Source: Pseudolabrys taiwanensis (GTDB lineage: Bacteria; Pseudomonadota; Alphaproteobacteria; Rhizobiales; Xanthobacteraceae). From it: DNA of 64,000 nt. Shown here in pieces: positions 20,196 to 59,066 of the stretch; the first letter of the stretch is position 1, and each line of letters starts with the position of its first letter. The translations under genes and the position numbers were made by a program. The DNA lies in contig NZ_CP031417.1 of the NCBI RefSeq assembly GCF_003367395.1, forward strand, positions 1,178,001 to 1,242,000, given 5' to 3'. A model generated the notes under the pieces. The model saw only the letters and a list, made by a program, of their open reading frames with translations, searched no databases and was not told the origin of the DNA.

Positions 20196-20296
20196 CCTCA
20201 TCCTGAGGAGCCCGAGCGAAGCGAGGGCGTCTCGAAGGATCGAGGGCGGCCCCATCCTTCGAGACGCGCTGCTGCGCAGCGCTCCTCAGGATGAGG
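20196..20296. repeat. Intergenic palindromic repeat, family A
   Basis: The ends CCTCATCCTGAGGAGC (20196-20211) and GCTCCTCAGGATGAGG (20281-20296) are perfect 16-base reverse complements. Inside, a second mirrored pair carries GTCTCGAAGGAT and ATCCTTCGAGAC. A close copy lies at 58960-59066 and a diverged one at 28022-28141. It sits between the convergent lysR and tgt genes. Confidence 0.85.
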
Positions 20297-20319: not shown

Positions 20320-21459
20320 TCAGCTCAGCGGCGGAATGTCGCCGCCTTTCCAGCCCGCCATCGTGCCGGCGTAGAAGTCGGCGAAACGGCCCTCCTCGAT
20401 CGCCGCGCGCATGCCGGCCATCAGCGCCTGGTAGTAGGCGATGTTGATGGTCGAAAGCAGCACCTGGCCGAGGATCTCGTTGGCCTTGATGAGGTGATGC
20501 AGATAGGCGCGCGAGTATGTGCGCGCGGCCGGATGCGGGCTCGCCTCGTCGAGCGGACGCGGATCGTCGGCGTGGCGCGCGTTCGACAGGTTGATCGAGC
20601 CGAAGCGCGTGAAGGCCATGCCGTGGCGGCCGTTGCGCGTCGGCATCACGCAGTCGAACATATCGACGCCGCGCTTCACCGCTTCCAAAAGATCATGCGG
20701 CGTGCCGACGCCCATCAGATAGCGCGGCCGCTCGGCCGGCAGCACCGGCGTCGTCTCCTCGACCACCTTGAGCATCACCGCCTGCGGTTCGCCGACCGCG
20801 AGGCCGCCGATGGCATAGCCTTCGAAGCCGATGTCGATGAGCTCGCGCGCGCTCTCTTGCCGCAGCGGGATGTCGTCGCCGCCCTGCACGATGCCGAACA
20901 GCGCGTAGCCGGTCGCGTTGCGCGCCTCGAAGGCGCGCCGCGAGCGCTCGGCCCAGCGCAATGACAGCGCCATCGCGCGTTGGATTTCCTCTCGGGCGGC
21001 CGGCAGCTTCAGACACTCGTCGAGTTGCATCGAGATGTCGGCCCCGAGCAGCGCCTGGATCTCGATCGAGCGCTCCGGCGAGAGTTCGAACATCGTGCCG
21101 TCGATGTGCGAGCGGAAAGTGACCGCCTTCTCGGTCAGCTTGCGCAAGGTCGCGAGCGACATGACCTGGAAACCGCCCGAGTCCGTCAGGATCGGCTTTT
21201 GCCAGTTCATGAACTTATGCAGGCCGCCGAGCGCGGCGACGCGCTCCGGTCCCGGCCGCAGCATCAGGTGATAGGTGTTGCCGAGCACGATCTCGGCGCC
21301 GGTGTCGGCGACGTCCTCAGGATGCAACCCTTTCACCGTGCCGGCAGTGCCGACCGGCATGAAGGCCGGCGTCTGCACCACGCCATGCGGCGCGACGAAC
21401 TGCCCGCGCCGGGCCATGCCGTCGGTGGTCTTGAGGGTGAAGGTGAAGGGGTCGGTCAT
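20320..21459 (-). CDS. tgt: tRNA-guanine transglycosylase (queuine tRNA-ribosyltransferase)
   Basis: About 380 residues. It exchanges guanine 34 of tRNAs with GUN anticodons for the queuosine precursor preQ1. Recognisable blocks are [33 protein letters not shown] with the catalytic Asp, [41 protein letters not shown] and [15 protein letters not shown]. The zinc-binding CxCxxC of the Escherichia coli enzyme is not present: the equivalent stretch reads [21 protein letters not shown] start at the ATG at 21459, giving [14 protein letters not shown]; an earlier in-frame ATG at 21474 lies inside a repeat and has no ribosome site. Confidence 0.95.
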
Positions 21460-21469
21460 CATTTTCTCT

Positions 21470-21572
21470 GTCATTCCGGGGCGCGAGCGTCAGCGAGCGA
21501 ACCCGGAATCCAGAACCGCTGTACCGCGCCGCTGGATTCCGGGTCCAGCGCTACGCGCTGTCCCGGAATGAC
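21470..21572. repeat. Palindromic repeat, family B, between tgt and queA
   Basis: GTCATTCCGGG (21470-21480) mirrors CCCGGAATGAC (21562-21572), and an inner pair CCCGGAATCCAG / CTGGATTCCGGG mirrors again. A shorter relative is at 36384-36415. The element overlaps the last codons and the stop of queA (21551-21572). Confidence 0.85.
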
Positions 21573-22735
21573 GGTTGGGGGAACAACAAACAGGCGTCGC
21601 CGTAGGAGTAGAACCTGTAGCCGGTTTCGATCGCATGGCGGTAGGCCCGCTGCATGGTCTCGCGCCCCGAGAAGGCGGACACCAGCATGAACAGGGTCGA
21701 GCGCGGCAGGTGGAAGTTGGTCAGCATCAGGTCGACCGCCTTGAAGCGATAGCCCGGCGTGATGAAGATGTCGGTGTCGGCGGCGAACGGCCTGAGGCGC
21801 CCGTCGTCTCCGGCCGCGCTTTCCAATGTCCGCATGGCCGTCGAGCCGACCGCCACGATCCGCCCGCCTTTGGCCCGGGCGGCGTTGAGCGCGTCGGCGA
21901 CCTCGGCCGGCAGGATGGCGAACTCCGAATGCATCTTGTGCTCGGCCGTGTCGTCCGCCTTGACCGGCAGGAAGGTGCCCGCGCCGACGTGGAGGGTCAC
22001 CTTGTGGACCGCCACGCCGCGCGCCGTCAGCCGCGCCAGCAGGTCCTCGGTGAAGTGCAGCCCGGCGGTCGGGGCCGCCACGGAGCCTTCCTCGTGGGCG
22101 AAGACCGTCTGATAGTCGGCGCGGTCCTGATCGTCCGGCTTGCGCTTGGAGGCGATGTAAGGCGGCAGCGGCAGGTCGCCGCGCTCGGCAATGGCCTGGT
22201 CCAGGATCGGGCCATGGAAGGAAAATGAAATGGTTACCTCACCTCCTTCATCTTTATGTGAAACTTTAGCATCGAGCTGACCGAGGAAGCAGACCTTGCC
22301 CTCGTCGCCAAAGCGCAGCGTGTCCCCGACCTGGACCTTCTTGGCGCCGAGGATGAAGGCCTTCCAGGTCGAGCCGTCGAGCCGCTTGTGTAAGGTCGCC
22401 TCGATGCCGGGTTCCGTATCGCCCCGGCCGATCCGCCGCCCCTTGAGGCGCGCGGCGATGACCTTGCTGTCGTTGACCACCAGGCAGTCGCCGGGCGCGA
22501 GCAGGTCCGGCAGGTCGCGGATATGCCGGTCCTCGAGAACCTCTCCGTTCGTCCCCGCGAAAGCGGGGACCCAGGGGCCACCCGCGCCAACCTCGCTTCT
22601 CTGGGCCCCCGCTTGCTCGGGGGCGACCGGAGCATGAGGCCGCACCACCAGCAGCCGGGCGGCGTCGCGCGGGTGCACGGGCCGCAGGGCAATGCGGTCA
22701 GCCGGGAGGTCGAAATCGAACAGATCAGTACGCAT
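21551..22735 (-). CDS. queA: tRNA preQ1(34) S-adenosylmethionine ribosyltransferase-isomerase
   Basis: 394 residues from the ATG at 22733-22735. It moves the ribosyl part of S-adenosylmethionine onto preQ1 in tRNA to form epoxyqueuosine. Family blocks include [89 protein letters not shown] and [19 protein letters not shown]. About 30 extra residues (35-66) split the usual LLVVRP...[13 protein letters not shown] region; they are encoded by a palindromic repeat yet keep the frame. The last residues (SFRDSA) and the stop also come from a repeat. It is upstream of tgt in the same direction. Confidence 0.95.
22545..22632. repeat. Palindromic repeat inserted in frame within queA, family D
   Basis: GTCCCCGC-GAAA-GCGGGGAC (22551-22570) and GCCCCCG-CTTGCT-CGGGGGC (22605-22624) form two hairpins, framed by CCCAG/CTGGG pairing (22570-22574 with 22601-22605). 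A related element is at 29098-29195. Its translation ([11 protein letters not shown]) is the peptide typically read through such repeats. Confidence 0.8.
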
Positions 22736-22873
22736 GCCCTTCCATGCCGGTCGGGGCGCGCACATTCAAGGCCGGCGAACGCGACCGCCGACAGTGCAAA
22801 GTGTCAGACACAATTTAGGCGTTTATCAATGTCGCTGCTGTGAGTTCGGCCCGATTGGCCGCAGGAGACGACA

Positions 22874-24064
22874 TTGGACGAGCCCACAGCCAGAGTGACG
22901 ATGGCCCTGATCGGCCCGGGCATCCTGTGCGTGTTCGGGCTGTCTTTCCTGTGGGCCTGGGCCATCGAAAGAAAGCGCCATTATCTGCTCCTGCTCGCCG
23001 CCGCCCCTGCCTTGTTCGCGCTCGGCGTCATGGTGCAGGTCTTTTATTGGCCGCCGCGAACACAGCCGAACGCCCTGATGTCCGGGCTGTTCTACACCAC
23101 GGCCGTGCTGCTCGCGGCCGAGGGCATCCTGCGCCGTAGCGGTCGGCGCTTCGGGCTCGCGCTCGACCTGGTGTTCCTGGCCGCGATCATGGGCGGCCTG
23201 TGGTACTTCTCTCACATCGTGCCGAGCACGCTGGTGCGCGTGTACATCCAGAACTTCAGCTACGGCGCCATTCTGCTGACGGCCGTCTTCTACCTGACGC
23301 CGCTGATGAGAGCTCGTGCGATCGATCGCGTGCTGTTCTGGACGCTCTTCGTTTTCGCGCTGCACTTCTTCCCGCGCACGGCGCTAACCATCGGCACGCA
23401 GGCGCCCGCCACGGCGTTGGCCTTCGGGGCGTCACTGTTCTGGCACATGCTGCATCTTTCGCTGGCGGTGTTGGGCGCCGCTCTGGCGGCCGCCCTGCTC
23501 GCCGCTGCCTTGTCCGATGTCATTGACGACCTGCGGCGCGAGCGCGATGTCGACGGCCTGACCGGCGTTCTGAACCGCCGCGCCTTCGAGGCCCGCGCCG
23601 AAGCGATCATCGCGCAGGACTGGCGCAAGCCATGCTCGCTGGTCGCCTGCGATCTCGATGCCTTCAAGCAGATCAACGACCGTCACGGCCATGCGGCGGG
23701 CGACCACGTGTTGACCGCGTTCGGTGAGCTTCTGCGCCGTACCGCGCGTAGCGCCGACGTGGTGGGACGCATCGGCGGTGAGGAATTCGCGATCCTGTTG
23801 CCGGGATCGCCCAGCAGCGGCGCCTATCTGTTCGCCGAACGGCTGCGCCGGGGTCTCGCCGGCACGCATTTTCCGTTTCTGCCGTCGCCGGGGCAGATTA
23901 CGGCAAGCTTCGGCATCGCCGAGCACCAATCAGGCGAGCCGTTTCAGCCGTTTCTCGCCCGCGCCGACCGCCGGCTGTACCAGGCCAAAGCCGCGGGGCG
24001 GAACCGCACCATCGCCGCCGATACGGATATCGTCTCGCCGGTGCAGAAGCCCACGCCGGCGTGA
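22874..24064 (+). CDS. Membrane-bound diguanylate cyclase (GGDEF domain)
   Basis: 396 residues. The N-terminal half holds about six transmembrane helices (first GPGILCVFGLSFLWAWAIE). After the last helix, RDVDGLTGVLNRRAF opens the GGDEF domain. Substrate-site residues are in DLDAFKQINDRHGHAAGD, and the active loop is GGEEF. Five residues before it, RSAD forms an RxxD inhibitory site for cyclic-di-GMP. It should make cyclic-di-GMP at the inner membrane. The start is a TTG at 22874 with AGGAG at 22863-22867. It is divergent from queA. Confidence 0.92.
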   Translation: MDEPTARVTMALIGPGILCVFGLSFLWAWAIERKRHYLLLLAAAPALFALGVMVQVFYWPPRTQPNALMSGLFYTTAVLLAAEGILRRSGRRFGLALDLVFLAAIMGGLWYFSHIVPSTLVRVYIQNFSYGAILLTAVFYLTPLMRARAIDRVLFWTLFVFALHFFPRTALTIGTQAPATALAFGASLFWHMLHLSLAVLGAALAAALLAAALSDVIDDLRRERDVDGLTGVLNRRAFEARAEAIIAQDWRKPCSLVACDLDAFKQINDRHGHAAGDHVLTAFGELLRRTARSADVVGRIGGEEFAILLPGSPSSGAYLFAERLRRGLAGTHFPFLPSPGQITASFGIAEHQSGEPFQPFLARADRRLYQAKAAGRNRTIAADTDIVSPVQKPTPA

Positions 24065-24092
24065 GCCGCGATTGAAGCAGAAAACAAAACGA

Positions 24093-24118
24093 CGGACATC
24101 GGGTAATCCCGATGTCCG
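24093..24118 (-). terminator. Strong hairpin with T-rich tail, probable terminator
   Basis: CGGACATCGGG-TAAT-CCCGATGTCCG is an 11-bp perfect stem. Read leftwards it is followed by TCGTTTTGTTTT, an interrupted T-tract. It lies between the convergent diguanylate cyclase and ppiB genes, 126 bases past the ppiB stop. Confidence 0.6.
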
Positions 24119-24191
24119 TGCGCGGGGACGAGCGGGCGAATGCTGTGCCTTACACGCCAATCTCACCACGCATTGAGCAACCCAAAACGAA

Positions 24192-24217
24192 CATGGCCGG
24201 GACAAAGCCCGGCCATG
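24192..24217. repeat. Short palindromic repeat, family C
   Basis: CATGGCCGGG and CCCGGCCATG are perfect 10-base arms around ACAAAG. The same arms recur at 26373-26458, so this is a small mobile-type palindrome rather than a gene-specific site. Confidence 0.7.
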
Positions 24218-24243
24218 ACGTTGCTTTCGGCGGTGTGAAGGCC

Positions 24244-24699
24244 TTACGCCCCCATCGTCGCCTTGACGATCTTGTCGGGGTCCTGCACCGGCTCGCCGCG
24301 CTTGATCTTGTCGACGTTCTCCATGCCGGAGATCACCTTGCCCCAGACGGTGTACTGCTTGTCGAGAAAGCGGGCGTCGTCGAAGCAGATGAAGAACTGG
24401 CTGTCGCCCGAATCCGGGTTGGCCGCGCGCGCCATCGAGACGGTGCCGCGCACATGCGGCTCGGCATTGAACTCGGCCTTGAGCTTCTTGCCCGAGCCGC
24501 CGGTGCCGGTGCCCTGCGGGCAGCCGGTCTGCGCCATGAAGCCGTCGATCACGCGATGGAAGACGATGCCATCGTAGAAGCCGTCCTTCACCAGTTCCTT
24601 GATGCGCGCGACGTGACCGGGCGCGAGGTCGGGACGCATCTCGATCACCACAGGGCCCTGGGTGGTTTCGAGCGTCAGGGTATCTTCCGGCTTGGCCAT
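24244..24699 (-). CDS. ppiB: Cytoplasmic cyclophilin-type peptidyl-prolyl isomerase
   Basis: 151 residues with no signal peptide. It begins MAKPEDTLTLETTQGPVVIEM, then the catalytic FHRVIDGFMAQTG with the active Arg and Phe, GTGTGGSGKK, SMARAANPDSGDSQFFICF, and WGKVISGMENVDKI. It speeds cis-trans isomerisation at proline. The length is typical of bacterial PpiB. It follows a second, exported cyclophilin on the same strand. Confidence 0.93.
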   Translation of the reverse strand: MAKPEDTLTLETTQGPVVIEMRPDLAPGHVARIKELVKDGFYDGIVFHRVIDGFMAQTGCPQGTGTGGSGKKLKAEFNAEPHVRGTVSMARAANPDSGDSQFFICFDDARFLDKQYTVWGKVISGMENVDKIKRGEPVQDPDKIVKATMGA

Positions 24700-24825
24700 T
24701 TCAATTCTCCTTGGGTTTCAATTGTCATGGCCGACTCTATGCCGGCCATCCCGCGTATGAAGGCGCTGTGCCCGACGAAACGGGATCACCGGTCACGGCG
24801 CGTCGCGCCTGCCCGATGACGACAG

Positions 24826-25446
24826 CTACTGAACGATCGTCGCCTTCTTCACGTAGTCGAGGCGCGGGAAATCCTTGGCGAGATACGCATTGCCCTCGCG
24901 CTGCATGCGGCTCTGGTCGGGACCGCGGCCGCGCGGCGCGCCCTCGCCGTATTCGGCGTTGAGCTTGTCGACGACGTCCATGCCGGAGATCACGCGGCCG
25001 AACGGCGCAAAGCCCATCTGATCGAGATTGGTGTTGTCGACGAAGTTGACGAACACCTGGCTGGTGCGGGTGTTCGGTCCCGCCATCGCGAAGGTGATGT
25101 AGCCGCGCTTGTTGCTCTGCTTGACCGGATCGTCCTTGACCGGCTTGTCGCGCCACTGCGCCATCGTGTTCGGATTGCCGTTGATGCCGAACTGCACCAT
25201 GAAGCCGGAGATGACGCGGAAGAAGCGCACGTCGTCGTAGAAGCCGCTCTTGACCAGATTGTAGAAGCGGTCGGCGCCGAGCGGCGCCCAATCGCGGTTC
25301 ACCTGCACGACGAAGGAGCCCTTGGTGGTGTCGAACTTGACCTTGTAGGTCGCGGGCGCGGCGGCCTCTTGCGCGACGGCGGGCGCGGCGATCGCGCCGG
25401 CAAACAGCGACAAAGCGAGCGTCAGGATCAAGCGGCGGCTTTGCAT
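24826..25446 (-). CDS. Periplasmic cyclophilin-type peptidyl-prolyl isomerase
   Basis: 206 residues. The signal peptide is RRLILTLALSLFAGAIAAPA with cleavage near AVAQ-E, so it acts in the periplasm. The cyclophilin core shows DTTKGSFVVQVNRDWAPLGA, FFRVISGFMVQFG, GYITFAMAGPNTRTSQVFVN and FGRVISGMDVVDKL. A C-terminal tail of about 40 charged residues goes beyond the core. Two ATGs are possible (25452, 25446); GAGG touches the first and is six bases before the second, so I use 25446. It lies between coaD and ppiB in one leftward run. Confidence 0.92.
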   Translation of the reverse strand: MQSRRLILTLALSLFAGAIAAPAVAQEAAAPATYKVKFDTTKGSFVVQVNRDWAPLGADRFYNLVKSGFYDDVRFFRVISGFMVQFGINGNPNTMAQWRDKPVKDDPVKQSNKRGYITFAMAGPNTRTSQVFVNFVDNTNLDQMGFAPFGRVISGMDVVDKLNAEYGEGAPRGRGPDQSRMQREGNAYLAKDFPRLDYVKKATIVQ

Positions 25447-25469
25447 CGTCATCCTCGTGTCAGGGGAAA

Positions 25470-25979
25470 TCAGGCGCCGGCGCGGCCGGCGAATTTCTGC
25501 TTCAGGCGCGCAGCGACCGTCGCCGGAACGAAGGCGGAAACGTCACCGCCCATGCCCGCGATCTGACGTACCAATGTGGCGGTGATCGGGCGCACCAAGG
25601 GAGAGGCCGGCAGGAACACCGTCTGCACCGACGGCGCCATGGTCTCGTTCATTCCCGCCATCTGCATTTCGTAATTGAAGTCCGTACCGTCGCGCAGCCC
25701 GCGGACGAGGACCGTGGCCCCCTCCTTCACCGCGGTGTTCACGACCAGCCCGGTGAAGGTGATGCAGGTGAGCTCGCACTGGGCGGCCTTGGCGAGCGGC
25801 CCGCAGGTCTCCTCGAGCATCGCCAGGCGTTCCTCGGCGGTGAACAGCGGCACCTTGCCGGGGTGCACGCCGATGGCGAGCACCAGCCGGTCGGCGAGCC
25901 TGACGGCGTTACGGACCACATCGATGTGGCCGTTGGTCACCGGGTCGAAAGAGCCTGCGTAAAGGGCGGTTCTCGGCAT
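25470..25979 (-). CDS. coaD: Pantetheine-phosphate adenylyltransferase
   Basis: 169 residues. It transfers AMP to 4'-phosphopantetheine in coenzyme A synthesis. The nucleotidyltransferase motif is in [20 protein letters not shown] (residues 4-23, T/NGH). [36 protein letters not shown] and the [11 protein letters not shown] segment (in place of the usual ISSTLVRE) follow. The ATG at 25979 gives the normal length; the frame stays open 12 codons further. Confidence 0.95.
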
Positions 25980-26118
25980 GCGCGCCGGTCTAACCCGGCC
26001 CTTGTTCCCGGGCAAGGCACCCCGCCCCGCCCGGGCGAACTTTTAGCCCCGGACGCCGTTGAACCCGCAGGCCGGGTGTCACGACCAATGTTCGGGCAAT
26101 CGAACAAGGGGCGCTATC

Positions 26119-26349
26119 ATGCTGAAAACCGTTTCCGCCATCCTGACCGCCGCCGCCGTCGCGGCCATGGTCACCGTATTCTCGGCTCCGGCCAACGGTC
26201 CGGTCAGCGCCGGCCCGCTGCCGCAAAAGGAAGAAGCCGCGCTGAAGTCCTGCACGCAGGCGCCCTGGCCCTACAACACCTGCGCCGGCACAGCGGTCGG
26301 CAATGCCAAGGTCCGCCTGGTGACGACGGACAAACGTGGCAACGAGTAA
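26119..26349 (+). CDS. Small secreted protein, 76 residues
   Basis: The signal peptide is MLKTVSAILTAAAVAAMVTV with cleavage near residue 23. The short mature chain has two cysteines (LKSCTQAPWPYNTCAGTAVG) and ends VRLVTTDKRGNE. It resembles small exported proteins of Bradyrhizobium relatives with a CTQ.PWPY..C core. Function is unknown; a disulfide in the periplasm is likely. A palindromic repeat follows 23 bases after the stop. Confidence 0.68.
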   Translation: MLKTVSAILTAAAVAAMVTVFSAPANGPVSAGPLPQKEEAALKSCTQAPWPYNTCAGTAVGNAKVRLVTTDKRGNE

Positions 26350-26372
26350 ACGAAGCGGCACGGGCTCTCCGC

Positions 26373-26458
26373 GTCATGGCCGGGCTTGTCCCGGCCATCC
26401 ACGTCTTTAACACCTCGCATAAGGGCTCGTGGATGCCCGGCACAAGGCCGGGCATGAC
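26373..26458. repeat. Palindromic repeat, family C
   Basis: Two hairpins, CATGGCCGGG-CTTGT-CCCGGCCATC and GATGCCCGG-CACAAG-GCCGGGCATG, are separated by about 36 bases. The first arms match the short element at 24192-24217. Confidence 0.75.
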
Positions 26459-26689
26459 GGTCCTTGGACCGGAGGTGCTGATTTCCATCGGAAGCGCTTT
26501 GAGGCGGTCTCCGAACGTCAGCCTCCAAGAGGTGCCGGTCCAAGACTCCGCCGCGCGGACACGCAGATCAGCTCTGCAAGGCGGCCAAAACGCCCAGCGC
26601 TTGTTGCCCCTGTTGGACAGCCCGGCTATCTCCGCGCCTGAACGAGCGTAAGAGGCTCGCGCCACAACGAGCCCACGCCAGTCGATCGG

Positions 26690-27988
26690 ATGCCGCGCCG
26701 GCGGCACAGCGATCGCATCGTGCCGTCCGACCCAGGTGATCCCTTGAACTTCCAAAGTCCGAAGAGCCCCGCGGCCGCGTCCAGTTCGTTCGCGGCGATG
26801 AAGTCGCCCGCCTATCGGCTGCAATTCGCGTCGTTCGTGCTGGCGATGATGGCCGACAATATCGAGCACGTGATCAGCTACTGGGTCGTCTTCCAGAAAT
26901 TCCATTCGCCGGCGCTGGCCGGCTTTGCCGTGCTGTCGCACTGGCTGCCGTTCCTGCTGTTCTCGGTCGCGGTCGGCGCTTTGGCCGACCGCTTCGATCC
27001 GCGCCGCATCATCCAGTGCGGCATGCTGCTGTTCATCGTGGCCTCGACCGGCTGGGGGATCCTGTTCATCACCGACACGTTGACCATGTCGGCGGCCATG
27101 GTGCTGCTCGTCATCCACGGCTGCGCCGGCGTGTTGTGGCAGACGCCGAACCAGTTGCTGCTGTACGACATCGTCGGCCCCGCCGGCCTGCCGAGCGCGG
27201 TGCGCATGAACGCGATGGCGCGCTATCTCGGCGTGCTGGTCGGCCCGGCCGTCGGCGGCGCCATCATGCTCTCGCTCGGCCCCTCGCACGGCATCATCGT
27301 CAACACTCTGTTCTATTTCCCGATGCTGATCTGGCTGTTCTGGGCGCCGACCAGCGAGAAAGGCGCCGCGGCCAAACGCATGGCCGTGCGCGGCTTCGCC
27401 GACATCGTCGACACCATCCGCGCCATCGGCCCGTATCGCGTTCTGACCTCGATGACGCTGCTCGCCGGCATGACGTCGTTCCTCGTCGGCAATGCCTACA
27501 GCGCGCAGATGCCGGGCTTCGCCGAGGATCTCGGCCACGGCGATCCCGGCGTGTCCTACAGCATCCTGCTGGCGGCGGACGCCGCCGGCGCGCTGCTCGC
27601 GGGGCTTGCGCTCGAGGCCTGGGGACGTCTCAAGCCGACGGCACGCACGGCGATCCTGCTCGCCATTCTGTGGAGCCTGTCCCTGCTCGCCTTCGCGACG
27701 GTGTCGCATTACGCGGCGGCGATCGTGCTGTTGTTCTCGGCCGGCTTCTTCGAATTGTCGTTCAACACCATGGCGCAGGCCTTGGTGCAATTGAACGCGC
27801 CCGTCGACATGCGCGGCCACGTCGTCGGCCTGTACAACATGGCCGGTCTCGGCATGCGCGCCTTCAGCGGCATCACGGTCGGCGTCGCCGGATCGGCGAT
27901 CGGCATCCACTGGTCGCTCGGCCTCTCGGCCGGCGTGCTGCTGGTGGCGTTGCTGGTGTTGTATCGGCGGGCGACATCACCGGTTTAA
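26690..27988 (+). CDS. MFS transporter (EntS/MFS_3-like exporter)
   Basis: Up to 432 residues with about 12 transmembrane helices. After a soluble N-terminus, FASFVLAMMADNIEHVISYW begins helix 1. The loop 2-3 motif VGALADRFDPRRI is characteristic of the major facilitator superfamily. Other segments (ARYLGVLVGPAVGGAIM, AGALLAGLALEAWGRL) match the EntS-like branch that exports siderophores or drugs. The true start is uncertain: the ATG at 26690 has only a weak ribosome site, and GTG 26720 or ATG 26798 are alternatives. No siderophore genes are nearby. Confidence 0.82.
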   Translation: MPRRRHSDRIVPSDPGDPLNFQSPKSPAAASSSFAAMKSPAYRLQFASFVLAMMADNIEHVISYWVVFQKFHSPALAGFAVLSHWLPFLLFSVAVGALADRFDPRRIIQCGMLLFIVASTGWGILFITDTLTMSAAMVLLVIHGCAGVLWQTPNQLLLYDIVGPAGLPSAVRMNAMARYLGVLVGPAVGGAIMLSLGPSHGIIVNTLFYFPMLIWLFWAPTSEKGAAAKRMAVRGFADIVDTIRAIGPYRVLTSMTLLAGMTSFLVGNAYSAQMPGFAEDLGHGDPGVSYSILLAADAAGALLAGLALEAWGRLKPTARTAILLAILWSLSLLAFATVSHYAAAIVLLFSAGFFELSFNTMAQALVQLNAPVDMRGHVVGLYNMAGLGMRAFSGITVGVAGSAIGIHWSLGLSAGVLLVALLVLYRRATSPV

Positions 27989-28021
27989 CCCGGCCTTCTG
28001 GCCACGGCTAAAGCGCCAAAG

Positions 28022-28141
28022 CCGTCACCCTGAGGTGCGAGCCGCGCAGCGGCGAGCCTCGAAGGGCGACGGCCAAATCTTTTCAGGTCTTGGCCGTTCA
28101 TCCTTCGAGGGCGGCCTGCGGCCGCCGCCTCAGGATGACGG
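28022..28141. repeat. Palindromic repeat, family A-like
   Basis: CCGTCACCCTGAGG at the left mirrors CCTCAGGATGACGG at the right with mismatches. Inside, GCCTCGAAGGGCGACGGCC mirrors GGCCGTTCATCCTTCGAGG. It fills the space after the MFS gene and is a diverged relative of the copies at 20196 and 58960. Confidence 0.75.
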
Positions 28142-28186
28142 GTCAAACGCTGTGCCGCGTCTCACGCCGAGTTCGACTCGAACAAG

Positions 28187-28426
28187 TCACTCGTCCTCCA
28201 ACGCCCAACTCTGATTAAGATGCGCCACTTGGCTCAGGATTTCACTTTCGGCCATCGGCGGAAGACTCGGATGCATCGCTCGAATGCGCCAGTTTGGACC
28301 GGTGCCCTCGGGATAGAGGCGCTCGATCTCCACGCGCTGAACATCGTTAGAGGGCCAAGCCTTGGCGATTTTCTTCAGACATTCGCCCTCAATAAACGCC
28401 CGCGACTTTTTTGGCATCTCTTCCAT
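28187..28426 (-). CDS. Small hypothetical protein, 79 residues
   Basis: The ATG at 28424-28426 has GGAG six bases upstream. The protein is soluble and mixed (RVEIERLYPEGTGPNWRIRA, then SEILSQVAHLNQSWALEDE). Similar short proteins occur in Bradyrhizobium-like genomes, but I cannot assign a role. It lies 33 bases ahead of the stop of the LysE-type gene on the same strand. Confidence 0.6.
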   Translation of the reverse strand: MEEMPKKSRAFIEGECLKKIAKAWPSNDVQRVEIERLYPEGTGPNWRIRAMHPSLPPMAESEILSQVAHLNQSWALEDE

Positions 28427-28459
28427 AGATTGCTCCGCGCTTAAATCACCTCAAACACG

Positions 28460-29077
28460 CTATCCCGGCCGTCGTGCCAGCGACAGCCAGACGCCGCCGC
28501 CGATCAGCGCGAGGCCCGACAGACGGCCGAGCAGCTTGGCATTGGCCTTGCGCAGGAAGAAGTTGCGGCCCGCCGCCGCCATCAGCGCCCAGCCACTGTC
28601 GGTGACGCCGGCCATGAGCACCGACACCACGCACATCACCACGAGCTGATGCCCGGCCGGCAGGGTCGCATCGATGAACTGCGGCAGGAAGGCCGTGAAG
28701 AAGGCGATGGTCTTCGGATTGGAGATGGCGACGAAGAAACCGCGGCGGAAATAGACGCCGTGGCTCGGCGCCGTCGTGAGCGCGACGTCGCGCCCCGCAT
28801 GCCGCCACGCCTGGATGCCGAGATAGATGAGGTAAGCCGCGCCGGCCCAGCGCAGCACTTCGAAGATCGCCGCGGTGTATTCGATGACGATGTTGAGGCC
28901 GAAGGCGATCGCCGAAATCAGCACGGCATTGCCGACGGTCGAACCCGCGACCGTCATCAGCGCCGCCCGCGTGCCGCGCGTCGCCCCGGTCGAGATGACG
29001 AGCGTGACGATCGGCCCCGGCGTGAGCACCAGGATCAGGGTGATGAGCAGGAAGGCGGAGAAGAGTTGGGTGTTCAT
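28460..29077 (-). CDS. LysE/RhtB-family amino-acid exporter
   Basis: 205 residues with about six transmembrane helices. The N-terminal block LLITLILVLTPGPIVTLVIS contains the TPGP motif typical of LysE/RhtB proteins, followed by GTRAALMTVAGSTVGNAVLI and RWAGAAYLIYLGIQAWRH. FFVAISNPKTIAFFTAFLPQ is the second conserved block. These carriers export amino acids or homoserine lactones through the inner membrane; the substrate is not readable here. Confidence 0.88.
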   Translation of the reverse strand: MNTQLFSAFLLITLILVLTPGPIVTLVISTGATRGTRAALMTVAGSTVGNAVLISAIAFGLNIVIEYTAAIFEVLRWAGAAYLIYLGIQAWRHAGRDVALTTAPSHGVYFRRGFFVAISNPKTIAFFTAFLPQFIDATLPAGHQLVVMCVVSVLMAGVTDSGWALMAAAGRNFFLRKANAKLLGRLSGLALIGGGVWLSLARRPG

Positions 29078-29097
29078 CGTGGCCTCCAGTTTCTGCT

Positions 29098-29195
29098 GTC
29101 ATCGCCCGCGAAAGCGGGCGATCCAGCAATCACCGGCTCCCATGATCTTCATCAGCGCCGTGGCTACTGGATGCCCCGCTTTCGCGGGGCATGAC
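29098..29195. repeat. Palindromic repeat, family D, between gyrA and the LysE gene
   Basis: GTCATCGCCCGCGAAAGCGG..GATCCAG on the left mirrors CTGGATGCCCCGCTTTCGCG..CATGAC on the right. Its GCCCGC-GAAA-GCGGGC hairpin is the same design as the element inside queA. Confidence 0.78.
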
Positions 29196-29201
29196 AGTGC
29201 C

Positions 29202-31931
29202 CTACTCGCTCTCTTCCTCGCTCAAGCGCTCGACCGACACCACGCGTTCGTCCTCGGCGGTGTTGAGCACGATGACGCCTTGCGTCGAGCGTCCGGCGAT
29301 GCGGATGCCGGCGACCGTGGTGCGGATGAGCTTGCCCGCATCGGTGACCAGCATGACCTGATCGCTTTCCTCGACCGGGAACGAACCGACGATCTTGCCG
29401 GTCTTGGTCGTGAGCGACATGCCGACGATGCCTTTGCCGCCGCGGCCCGTGGTCCGATACTCGAACGAGGACGTGCGCTTGCCGAAGCCGCGCTCCGACA
29501 AAGTGAGCACGAACTGCTCGGCCGCCGAGAGCTCGACGTAACGCTGCTCGCCGAGCTCGATATTGCCGCTGTCGGCGATCTCCGGTGCCTCCTCGGCCTC
29601 GACCGGCGCCGCGCCCGCCTCGACTTCCGCGCCGGTGCCGCGCCGGATGGCGCTGGCGCGCTTGAGATAGGCCGCGCGCTCGTCGGCGGTGACCTCGAGA
29701 TGGCGCAGGATCGACAGCGAGATGACCCGGTTGTCGCCGTCGAGCGCGATGCCGCGCACGCCCATCGACGTGCGGCCGGTGAAGACGCGCACTTCCGGCA
29801 CCGGGAAGCGGATGCACTGGCCGCCCGCGGTGGTCAGCAGCACGTCGTCCTTCTCGGTGCAGATCTGCACGTCGACGATGCCCTCGCCCGGCGCAAGCTT
29901 CATCGCGATGATGCCGGAGCGGCGCACGTCGACGAAGTCCGACAGCTTGTTGCGGCGGACCGTGCCCTTGGTGGTGGCGAACATCACGTCGAGTTCGGCC
30001 CAGGTCTTTTCGTCCTCGGGCAGCGGCATGATGGTCGTGATGGTCTCGCCGGGATCGAGCGGCAGGATGTTGATCAGCGCCTTGCCGCGCGCCTGCGGCG
30101 CCGCCAGCGGCAGCCGCCAGACCTTTTCCTTGTAGACCTGGCCGGCGGACGAGAAGAACAGCACCGGCGTGTGCGTGTTGGCCACAAACAGCCGCGAGAC
30201 GAAATCCTCCTCGCGCGTCTGCATGCCGGAGCGGCCCTTGCCGCCGCGCTTCTGCGAACGATAGGTCGAGAGCGGCACGCGCTTGATGTAGCCGAGGTGG
30301 GACACGGTGATGACCATGTCCTCGCGCTGGATCAGGTCCTCGTCCTCGACCTCGGATTCCTGCTCGGCGATCACGGTGCGGCGGGGCGTGGCGAACTCCG
30401 CCTTCACCTTCGCCATCTCGTCCTTGATGATGCCCTGGATGCGCGCGCGCGAGCGCAGGATGTCGAGATAGTCGGCGATCTCGGCGGCGAGCTTGTCCAG
30501 TTCTTCCCTGATCTCGTCGCGGCCGAGAGCCGTGAGGCGCTGCAGGCGCAGATCGAGGATCGCCTGCGCCTGCTCAGCCGACAGGCGCGTCGTGCCCTCG
30601 TCCGACACGCGGTGACGCGGGTCGTCGATGAGCAGCACCATGTTGATCATGTCCTTGGCCGGCCAGTCGCGCGCCATCAAGGCTTCGCGCGCCTCCTTGG
30701 CGTCGCGCGAGGCGCGGATCAGCCGGATCACCTCGTCGATATTGGCGACGGCGATGGCGAGGCCGACCAAGATGTGCGCCCGGTCGCGCGCTTTGTTGAG
30801 CAGGAACTTGGTGCGCCGCGACACCACCTCTTCGCGGAACGCGATGAAGGCGCTGAGCATGTCCTTCAGGTTCATCGTCAGCGGCCGGCCGCCGTCGAGC
30901 GCCACCATGTTGCAACCGAACGACGATTGCAGCGGCGTGAAGCGATAGAGCTGGTTCAGCACCACCTCGCGCTCGGCATCGCGCTTGAGCTCGATGACGA
31001 CGCGGTAGCCGTCGCGGTCCGACTCGTCGCGCAGATCCGAGATGCCCTCGATCTTCTTCTCGCGCACCAGTTCGGCAATGCGCTCGACCATCGAGGCCTT
31101 GTTCACCTGATACGGAATCTCGGAGATGATGATCGCTTCGCGTTCCTTGCGAACGGTTTCGAAGCCGACCTTGCCGCGCATGATGATCGAGCCGCGGCCG
31201 GTGTGATAGGCGCTGCGGATGCCGGCTTTGCCGAGAATGATGCCGCCGGTCGGGAAGTCCGGGCCCGGCACGATGTTGTTGAGATCGTCGATCGACAAAG
31301 CCGGATCGTCGATCAGCGCCGAGCAGGCGTCGATCACCTCGCCGAGATTGTGCGGCGGAATGTTGGTCGCCATGCCGACGGCGATGCCGCCCGCGCCGTT
31401 GACCAGGAGATTGGGGAAACGCGCCGGCAGGACGACGGGCTCCTGCTCGTGGCCGTCGTAGTTGTCCTGGAAGTTGACGGTGTCCTTGTCGATGTCGTCG
31501 AGCAGCGACATCGCCGAACGCTCGAGCTTACATTCGGTGTATCGCATGGCCGCCGGCGGATCGCCGTCGACAGAGCCGAAATTGCCCTGCCCGTCGATCA
31601 GCTCGAGGCGCATCGAGAAGTCCTGCGCCATGCGCACCAGGGCGTCGTAGATCGCCTGGTCGCCGTGCGGGTGATATTTACCCATCACGTCGCCGACGAC
31701 GCGCGAGGACTTCACATACTTCTTGTCCGGCGTATGGCCTTGCTCGTGCATCGAATAGAGGATGCGCCGGTGCACCGGCTTCAAGCCGTCGCGCACGTCG
31801 GGCAGCGCTCGCGACACGATCACGCTCATGGCGTAATCGAGGTACGAACGCTTCATCTCTTCGGTGATGGAGACGGGGCGGACATCGGAGGGCTGATCAC
31901 CCCCCGATTTGGGAGTTTCGTTATCGGACAA
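29202..31931 (-). CDS. gyrA: DNA gyrase subunit A
   Basis: 909 residues. It cuts and rejoins DNA in the gyrase A2B2 complex to add negative supercoils. The quinolone-determining stretch [20 protein letters not shown] lies at residues 86-105, with Gln92 at the position of E. coli Ser83 and Asp96 at that of Asp87. The catalytic Tyr131 is in [10 protein letters not shown]. The C-terminal pinwheel holds the gyrase box QKRGGKGR. An alanine/glutamate-rich insert sits near residues 760-785. The gene stands alone, with no gyrB in view. Confidence 0.97.
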
Positions 31932-41850: not shown

Positions 41851-42615
41851 ATGTCGGAGCCGATCTGGAACCAGTTTCTCACCGAACGCGACAAGGCCGT
41901 CTTCGAGGCGTCCGGTTACGGCACGCGGGGCGGCTTCGGCAAACGTCCGGCGCTGCTCGTGATCGACGTGAACTACGCCTTTTGCGGCGACAAACCCGAG
42001 CCGATCCTGGAATCGATCAAGCGCTGGCGCAATTCCTGCGGCGAGGAAAGCTGGCCGGCGGTGGCATCGATCAAGTCGCTCATCGACAAGGCGCACGGCA
42101 AAGGCATTCCGGTCATCTACACGACCGGCGTGCGCCGCGAGGACAACTGGGACTCCGGCTCGTGGAGCTGGAAGAACAAGCGCTCGAGCGAGCGGCCGCA
42201 GGTGCCGATGAGCAATCTCGACGGCAACCAGATCGTCGACGAGATCGCGCCGGCGCCGCAGGACATCGTCATCTACAAGCAGAAGCCGTCCGGCTTCTTC
42301 GGCACCAACATGGCGAGCTACCTGACGCTGCTCGGCTGCGACAGCGTCATCGTCACCGGCACGACGACGTCGGGCTGCGTGCGCGCCACGGTGCTCGACG
42401 CCTTCAGCCTGAACTACCGCATCGCGGTGGCCGAGGAAGGCTGCTTCGACCGCTCGCAGGCCAGCCACGCGATCAATCTCTGCGACATGAACGCCAAATA
42501 CGCCGATGTCGTGAAGACGGCCGAGGTGCTATCGTTCTTCGAGATCTTGCCGTCGGACATGTACGACCTGCCCAAGGGCACGGCGCCGCGGCTCGCGACC
42601 GCCGCCAACGGTTAA
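41851..42615 (+). CDS. Isochorismatase-fold cysteine hydrolase, N-carbamoylsarcosine amidase-like (copy 1)
   Basis: 254 residues. The Asp-Lys-Cys triad of the family is readable: Asp in RPALLVIDVNYAFCG, Lys in VIYKQKPSGFFGTN, and Cys in TGTTTSGCVRATVLDAFSLN. The last block and VAEEGCFDRSQASHAINLCD match N-carbamoylsarcosine/ureido-type amidohydrolases, which release CO2 and ammonia. A GTG at 41848 directly precedes the ATG at 41851; GAAGGGAG upstream serves either. It is followed 19 bases later by a paralogue, and belongs to the ABC operon. Confidence 0.85.
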   Translation: MSEPIWNQFLTERDKAVFEASGYGTRGGFGKRPALLVIDVNYAFCGDKPEPILESIKRWRNSCGEESWPAVASIKSLIDKAHGKGIPVIYTTGVRREDNWDSGSWSWKNKRSSERPQVPMSNLDGNQIVDEIAPAPQDIVIYKQKPSGFFGTNMASYLTLLGCDSVIVTGTTTSGCVRATVLDAFSLNYRIAVAEEGCFDRSQASHAINLCDMNAKYADVVKTAEVLSFFEILPSDMYDLPKGTAPRLATAANG

Positions 42616-42634
42616 ACGACTTAAGGAAATCGCC

Positions 42635-43426
42635 ATGACGGACACTTCAAAGCCCCGCATCTGGGACGCCTTCCTCACCGAGCGCGACAAGAAGGTCTTC
42701 GCCGCCTCGGGCTACGGCACGCACGCCGGCTACGGCAAGCGTCCGGCGCTTCTCGTGATCGACGTCAGCTATGGCTTCGCCGGCGACAGACCGGAGCCGA
42801 TCCTGGAGTCGATCAAGCGCTGGGCCAATTCCTGCGGTGAAGAAAGCTGGGACGCGATCGCCAAGATCCGGGACCTGATCGACGTCTTCCACGACCGCAA
42901 GATGCCGGTGATCTTCACGACCGGCGTCGTGCGCGCCGACAACTGGGATGCCGGCAGTTGGTCGTGGAAGAACAACCGGACCGCCGAATCCGCGCCGCGC
43001 CCGCAGCAGAACCTCGATGCCAACGCGATCGTCTCCGCCATCGCGCCGGCGCAGCAGGATCTCGTGGTGCTCAAGCAGAAGCCGTCGGGCTTCTTCGGCA
43101 GCAACCTCGCGAGCTACCTGACCCTGCTCGGCTGCGACAGCGTCATCGTCACCGGCACGACGACGTCGGGCTGCGTGCGCGCCACGGTGCTCGACGCCTT
43201 CAGCCTGAACTACCGCGTCGCCGTGGCCGAGGACGGCTGCTTCGATCGTTCGCAGGCGAGCCACGCCATCAACTTGTGCGACATGCACGCCAAGTACGCC
43301 GACGTGGTGCCGGCAGCGGATATCGTCGCGCACATCAAGGCGCAGCCGGACGACCTGTTCCCCAACCTGCCGGCCGCCGGCAAGCAGTCGGACGGTCCGA
43401 ACCTGCGTCTGGTCTCCGGCGCGTAA
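42635..43426 (+). CDS. Isochorismatase-fold cysteine hydrolase, N-carbamoylsarcosine amidase-like (copy 2)
   Basis: 263 residues, a paralogue of the preceding gene over nearly its whole length, with the same triad: Asp in RPALLVIDVSYGFAGD, Lys in VVLKQKPSGFFGSN, Cys in TGTTTSGCVRATVLDAFSLN. It has an extra C-terminal tail of about 15 residues. A 93-base segment covering the catalytic Cys (43124-43216) is identical at DNA level to copy 1 (42328-42420), while the rest has diverged. Two related subunits may form a hetero-oligomer or act on two substrates in series. Confidence 0.85.
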   Translation: MTDTSKPRIWDAFLTERDKKVFAASGYGTHAGYGKRPALLVIDVSYGFAGDRPEPILESIKRWANSCGEESWDAIAKIRDLIDVFHDRKMPVIFTTGVVRADNWDAGSWSWKNNRTAESAPRPQQNLDANAIVSAIAPAQQDLVVLKQKPSGFFGSNLASYLTLLGCDSVIVTGTTTSGCVRATVLDAFSLNYRVAVAEDGCFDRSQASHAINLCDMHAKYADVVPAADIVAHIKAQPDDLFPNLPAAGKQSDGPNLRLVSGA

Positions 43427-58959: not shown

Positions 58960-59066
58960 CCTCATGCTGAGGAGCGCTGCGAAGCAGCGCGTCTCGATGC
59001 ATGAGGCCGCCCATCCTTCGAGACGCCCGCCCTCGCTGACGCTTCGGCGGGCTCCTCAGGATGAGG
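58960..59066. repeat. Intergenic palindromic repeat, family A
   Basis: CCTCATGCTGAGGAGC (58960-58975) mirrors GCTCCTCAGGATGAGG (59051-59066) with one mismatch. The inner arms GTCTCGATGCATGAGG and CATCCTTCGAGACGC match the copy at 20196-20296. Confidence 0.85.

Follow-up and report, generated by a model that had tools for sequence, protein, structure and literature searches.

The queA gene of Pseudolabrys taiwanensis carries, in frame within its coding sequence, a head-to-head dimer of a REP whose encoded peptide evolves nearly freely among related species while its two hairpins are conserved. The account we consider probable is that a MITE-like REP dimer entered a turn of QueA, in frame, in an ancestral member of the genus, was tolerated there, and has had its hairpins kept up at the nucleic-acid level. 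On this account, a dimer of about 90–105 bp would have inserted in the turn between two N-terminal strands of QueA and would form a loop that is exposed and disordered, as structure prediction suggests, and that does not disturb catalysis. It would persist because the site tolerates extra residues rather than through any usefulness of the peptide, and would disappear when deleted in frame or when the queA allele is exchanged; its hairpins would be kept either by selection on DNA or RNA structure or by template-switch or gene-conversion correction. In-frame palindromic repeats are already known, from the Rickettsia palindromic elements (RPEs) and from other intragenic REPs, and the queA case joins them; its unusual parts are the conservation of hairpins within a coding region and the occurrence of a tRNA arm in the same loop.

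The window, that is, the whole 64,000-nt stretch of P. taiwanensis DNA that was analysed, contains the features collected in Table 1. The 90-bp dimer in queA combines two GC-rich hairpins with a spacer and with paired flanks (CTCCG...CGGAG), and the queA strand from 22639 to 22534 reads as a stop-free frame of 35 residues, element borders included. A preliminary description of this DNA had attributed about 30 extra QueA residues to two GC-rich hairpins, and we confirm the sequence, the frame and the coordinates, with the correction that the bounds then given, 22545–22632, become slightly wider (22543–22632) when the paired flanks are counted. That the frame is kept and the rest of the enzyme looks intact, as was also proposed, is borne out as well: the product matches PF02547 (E = 1.6e-118), with the QueA model aligned through its last position, its predicted fold matches QueA, and dN/dS of the core is about 0.08–0.18 over 12 pairs. 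In five carrier pairs the core dN is 0.039–0.116 against a dS of 0.41–0.72, a low ratio that indicates an enzyme under purifying selection. The next gene downstream on the same strand, tgt, acts in the same queuosine pathway.

Table 1. Features in and around queA, with the comparison dimer near gyrA (positions in the window)
Feature	Position	Strand	Details
queA, S-adenosylmethionine:tRNA ribosyltransferase-isomerase	21551..22735	-	394 aa including the insert; start MRTDLF
REP head-to-head dimer, in frame in queA	22543..22632	-	encodes approximately residues 35-66 of QueA
Hairpin 1 in queA sense	22605..22624	-	8-bp stem with one mismatch, 4-nt loop; encodes APEQAGAQ
Tails and spacer between hairpins	22571..22604	-	spacer homologous to queA-insert spacers of other species
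Hairpin 2 in queA sense	22551..22570	-	perfect 8-bp stem, 4-nt loop; encodes VPAFAGT plus borders
Palindromic repeat unrelated to the REP dimer	21470..21572	.	at the 3' end of queA
tgt, queuine tRNA-ribosyltransferase	20320..21474	-	PF01702, E = 1.6e-151
Intergenic dimer, CTGTCAT-tagged subfamily	29096..29197	.	just after gyrA; hairpin core 13 nt past the gyrA stop

The repeat family is that of a REP in the usual sense, a short palindrome in many copies that is mainly intergenic: its hairpin core, CCCGCGAAAGCGGG, occurs 330 times with at most one mismatch in the 5.59-Mb genome, against 16 times for a reversed control pattern. At least two subfamilies are present among 179 sampled hairpins. The commonest flank, CCG[C/T/G]TC (105 of 179), includes the queA copy, whose own flanks read CCGTTC and CCGGTC; TGTC/CGTC-type tags mark 54 (43 + 11), and the remaining types 20, with a CCA tail in 152 of the 179. 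The dimer after gyrA, which had been offered as a comparison copy at 29098–29195, is indeed a related repeat, but it belongs with the TGTC/CGTC-tagged hairpins rather than with the queA subfamily, and spans the slightly longer interval of Table 1. Head-to-head dimers predominate (139 oriented readings from the same sample, most dimers being counted twice, once per strand, with up to four mismatches allowed in the partner). These traits recall the CGTC REPs, which according to the main text of Di Nocera et al. 2013 (PMC3733652) are mainly alphaproteobacterial, form mostly head-to-head dimers and have no dedicated transposase. Like them, the queA element has an 8-bp stem and a 4-nt loop (8–9 bp and 4–5 nt in CGTC REPs), a CCA tail and a head-to-head arrangement; unlike them, as there described, its subfamily is flanked by CCG[C/T/G]TC rather than by CGTC, TGTC or CCTC. 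Judged by its sequence, the queA copy is CGTC-like and not a strict member of the CGTC REPs.

A Y1 transposase (RAYT, PF01797) was found in none of the five carriers, four of whose assemblies are in many contigs, and the one match among eight genomes searched lay in a non-carrier; a RAYT as the mover was set aside for this reason. As to target-site duplications, the longest flanking direct repeat averaged 3.1 nt for 32 dimers of the P. taiwanensis genome, compared with 2.5 nt in mismatched pairs, with one 9-nt case, and GGGCCAGTTCC and GGGCCAACCCC stand around the queA insert of L004. Within 21000–30000 of the window, Rfam returned nothing that reached a gathering score, its three weak matches all lying outside queA.

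The queA element stands apart in its own genome. We examined 108 elements, about half of the genome's hairpins, in stretches around the 96 exact and four one-mismatch matches listed, for a frame that stays open through the element and is coding to either side of it, by means of a codon-usage model that had been trained on frames of this genome. Some frame was open across 45 of the 108, and the sole tagged element clearly coding on both sides was the one in queA, with scores of 0.29 and 0.40. The next tagged element, L057, scored 0.11, within the wrong frames' 95th percentile of 0.119, and was rejected; L033 and L035 (0.33 and 0.14) were rejected as untagged two-mismatch chance matches inside genes. 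The check for the hairpin inside other genes that came with the preliminary description thus yields no other clear in-frame tagged element among those 108, and since the stretches covered 155 of the 330 hairpins with at most one mismatch, further in-frame cases may exist.

Among relatives, the insert is the exception. Of 36 same-genus genomes (G000–G035), 34 have a readable queA; G007 has only a piece of QueA, and G012, rated 90% complete, gave no QueA match and only short REP-like matches, which may reflect missing sequence or a true loss. Five of the 34 carry the REP insert (G000, G010, G011, G016 and G028), a tRNA-Val gene fragment takes that position in one (G032), and the other 28 have neither, their loop being short; G001, G005, G006, G015 and G020, for instance, are without the insert. 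The nearest named QueA loci are labelled Pseudolabrys, and in 80 named loci we found the insert in L061 and L062, a shortened form in L069, the tRNA fragment in L064 and L077, and none of these in 75; the two sets overlap, L062 corresponding to G010, L077 to G032, and several others likewise. At the protein level, 204 close QueA clusters, made up of the 120 best of 7977 in one ranking and 84 more among the 120 best of 7982 in a second, divide into 79 with a long loop, 10 with a partial or scar form, five with the tRNA fragment and 110 with none, the classes being assigned by length first and long meaning 26 or more residues. The first ranking favours carriers because the query itself carries the insert, and the 84 added clusters include no full insert. 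Shortened forms were seen in P0021, P0027, P0106 and L069, with apparent single fused hairpins in P0021, P0106 and L069, and P0059 apparently reads the repeat in other frames before returning to that of queA. In five other carriers (L002–L005 and L061) the extra residues are likewise encoded by the repeat at the DNA level, while metagenome carriers were assessed from protein only. The preliminary description had proposed an alignment of QueA from close relatives and reckoned with the case that repeat-free relatives show the same residues; the alignment finds them without those residues. The question of whether intragenic palindromes are neutral or functional is an old one, and a single housekeeping gene, queA, offers for it a natural series that is well sampled: complete and shortened inserts, what seems to be a compensated frameshift, sites without any insert and a tRNA fragment, over dozens of relatives.

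This scattered distribution could stem from a single early insertion or from several. A QueA tree built without the loop (154 rows, with identical cores merged, the unparsed loops of P0049, P0058, P0116 and L098 left out, and two tRNA-fragment rows not scored as a state) requires at least 35 switches between presence and absence, so that one ancestral gain requires many losses. Carriers are scattered on a gyrA tree of 30 genomes as well, G000, G016 and G011 each being paired with an insert-free genome, and G010 and G028 falling in an unresolved group with insert-free genomes. The distribution would follow directly if the turn were a landing hotspot in which each carrying lineage received its own REP dimer and absence were mostly ancestral, a reading that we regard as possible but doubtful. 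Several further observations suit it. Non-carrier loops often resemble outgroup loops (PGGAPEL, PGQTPEW), hairpin subtypes differ between the close cores of P0020 and P0041 (core distance 0.042), and the L005 spacer has no similarity to those of L001–L004 (23–69% of shuffles reach it), that of L061 being marginal (1.1–3.3% of shuffles). A REP hairpin also sits 13–14 nt past the gyrA stop in three of 30 genomes that are not sisters (L150 in G000, L154 in G023 and L165 in G028), which indicates that REPs repeatedly occupy equivalent places. Carriers rank high in REP number (one-sided Mann–Whitney p 0.003, 5 vs 28, relatedness not corrected), a difference that fits shared descent or repeated insertion alike.

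What speaks against recurrent insertion is the spacer, which is homologous in four species of different clades, whereas the spacers of other dimers in carrier genomes are mostly unrelated. For the pairs L001/L003, L002/L003, L002/L004 and L003/L004, not one of 2000 shuffles attained the observed similarity, nor did more than 1.3% of 860 spacer pairs drawn from other dimers; for L001/L002 the corresponding figures are 0.15% and 4.3%, and for L001/L004, where homology is weak, 5.3% of shuffles reach it. The L001–L004 spacers align in one orientation, and their similarity across inserts declines as the cores diverge (Mantel r -0.16, 0 of 2000 permutations), nearing background past about 13% core difference. 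With the L003 insert as query, the best match is queA in G000 and G028 and lies elsewhere in G011 and G016; this search reports the queA insert of G011 as oppositely oriented; the spacer alignment prefers one shared orientation for it. From these sequence comparisons we conclude that at least G000, G011, G010 and G028 (L001–L004) go back to one insertion, whether inherited or passed on by queA exchange, with many losses, the homologous spacers pointing to an old insertion that these four species have in common and that was lost or never gained by others. In L005, L061 and some database types the insert may have been gained separately. The loop had been called new as well as tolerated: tolerated it appears to be, but a spacer homologous in four species means that it is not new in this strain.

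The two layers of the insert, peptide and hairpin, behave differently. Its dN/dS is about 0.31 for L003/L004, 0.64 for L001/L003, 0.82 for L002/L003, 0.89 for L001/L061 and 1.08 for L001/L002, figures which indicate that the encoded peptide evolves nearly freely. Over 15 pairs of six species the hairpin arms diverge by 5–23% and the spacers by 23–58%; in L003/L004 arm divergence is 5% and spacer divergence 31%, the latter on a par with that at synonymous core sites. Five base pairs have changed on both sides, which 0 of 500 shuffles reach, although the shuffles ignore relatedness; further pair types are no more numerous than by shuffling (430 of 500 reach the count). The residues encoded at both ends of the first stem covary as pairing predicts (I/I 17, T/V 15, A/A 14, V/T 3), as counted in 64 distinct inserts that fit the residue pattern, with 8 of 77 full inserts not fitting. 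Conserved arms could result from selection on structure, from correction of one arm by the other, or from a mix of subtypes inserted at different times. The contrast between a free peptide and a conserved hairpin makes a nucleic-acid explanation directly testable.

The strongest form of such an explanation is that the hairpins have been domesticated, selection keeping their base pairs because they slow translation, protect the message or control queA–tgt expression. Besides the conserved arms, the compensating changes and the covarying residues, it can call on the RNA of the segment, which folds at -62.4 kcal/mol with a z-score of -2.85 against shuffles. That lowest-energy fold is, however, one long stem rather than two hairpins, as is the consensus fold of six sequences; where the folds differ, the local hairpins are better kept (pair 16–35 in 6/6, long-range pair 16–95 in 4/6). 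Moreover, most same-genus queA genes lack the insert, shortened forms exist, and intergenic REPs are palindromic for reasons of their own. We hold domestication to be unlikely, and prefer a tolerated ancestral dimer whose hairpins would be kept up by structure selection or correction.

The same turn has also received other sequences. In L064 (G060; L064:708-1817), 39 of 40 bases, spanning the D arm through the variable loop, are identical to the tRNA-Val(CAC) gene of that genome itself, and in L006 (G032; cf. L077) 32 of 34 bases match the tRNA-Val(CAC) gene, in frame at the QueA turn; the matches score 37 and 28, the best of 1000 shuffles reaching 11–12. The peptide of the tRNA fragment occurs in five protein clusters, P0121 and P0122 being the two genomes confirmed in DNA, and P0123, P0125 and P0134 having the same peptide at the protein level. 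In another family, L271 (G058:C1337:140900-142500) has four tandem PHAKSG-like units in this turn. Together with the tRNA-Val fragment, these units favour a permissive turn over a REP-specific target, and point to the N-terminal turn of QueA as a generally permissive site. A bolder reading, which we think improbable, would have the turn capture and keep hairpin nucleic acid as such, both REP dimers and the tRNA-Val(CAC) anticodon arm, with the REP hairpins maintained by structure selection or correction as the peptide drifts, and with the structured element acting in the queA–tgt message or in the chromosome. A comparable case is recB of Xanthomonas campestris and X. oryzae, in which, by the main text of PMC3733652, different REPs lie at about the same site; going by that description, it resembles queA in having different REPs in a similar place of one gene in related species, and differs in that the queA turn also holds a tRNA fragment.

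Tolerance of the dimer, as proposed here, would be consistent with the predicted structure. AlphaFold2, run with 93 aligned QueAs, gave a mediocre model (mean pLDDT 67.8, pTM 0.70) in which the insert is all coil between strands 27–31 and 68–71, with 19 of residues 34–66 at a pLDDT under 50; other stretches of low confidence are 145–151, 173–196 and 211–222. The top four Foldseek matches are solved QueA structures (including 1yy3, 1wdi and 1vky), superposing loosely (rmsd 8.5–10.7), and the sequence match to 1yy3 is interrupted at the insert, between 1yy3 residues 39 and 43. The coil in the model and the gap in the 1yy3 match make it likely that the insert lies on the QueA surface; of the exposed loop proposed beforehand, the coil between two strands is thus recovered in the model, its exposure being a prediction. 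For annotation, the case is a warning that REP-encoded peptides (e.g. PAQAGxQ...WVPAxAGT) can be genuine parts of a protein.

Two further explanations were rejected. An assembly or annotation error or a dead gene, for which nothing speaks beyond the oddity itself, is very improbable and was ruled out, since the same kind of in-frame insert is found in other species' genomes and in many database proteins, core dN/dS is low, and the Pfam QueA model is aligned through its last position. An ordinary variable protein loop that resembles the repeat by accident is hardly credible: the loop does range in length between about 1 and 10 residues where there is no insert, but the DNA here matches the genomic REP, including both paired flanks.

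The preliminary description had drawn a parallel, in a different bacterial order, to the palindromic elements inside Rickettsia genes, and the parallel is closer than it stated, although it is no first. The main text of PMC3733652 assigns the Rickettsia conorii palindromes RPE-4 and RPE-6 to the CGTC REPs and describes intragenic CGTC REPs, many encoding 20–30 residues, as well as intragenic REPs outside Rickettsiales; it does not mention queA. The Rickettsia palindromic elements (Ogata, Claverie and colleagues) were found in 19 reading frames in one report, as given in the accessible text of PMC2229807, which also describes a Rickettsia gmk with an in-frame palindromic insert whose guanylate kinase is active with altered affinity. 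Like these elements, the queA insert is palindromic and in frame in a conserved protein gene whose core is under purifying selection; unlike Rickettsia, where many genes are reported to have elements, here one of 108 tested elements is of this kind, the comparison being drawn at the level of description. The enterobacterial RU/ERIC repeats, too, are small and mobile and have open frames that are fused to genes; they are set apart, by their description in the accessible text of Delihas 2007 (PMC2759123), by larger units (103–168 bp) and other host bacteria. In the open-access literature we found no paper combining Pseudolabrys, palindromic and repeat and, by title, nothing on palindromic or intragenic repeats in queA and nothing relevant on tRNA fragments inside genes; the word 'intragenic' is absent from the accessible text of a 2025 REP survey (PMC12306157).

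The window holds further repeats besides the REPs. The palindromic repeat at the 3' end of queA (GTCATTCCGG...CCGGAATGAC) provides the last codons of the gene, PSFRDSA, and its stop codon. Another palindromic repeat pair, of unrelated sequence (GTCATGGCCGGGCTTGTCCCGGCCATCCACG ... CGTGGATGCCCGGCACAAGGCCGGGCATGAC), occupies 26373–26459, and tandem duplicated stretches, 77–88% identical and 796 nt apart, lie at 41863–43309. Finally, copies of a 53-nt repeat stand in inverted orientation at 20244–20296 and 58960–59012, where they are 91% complementary.
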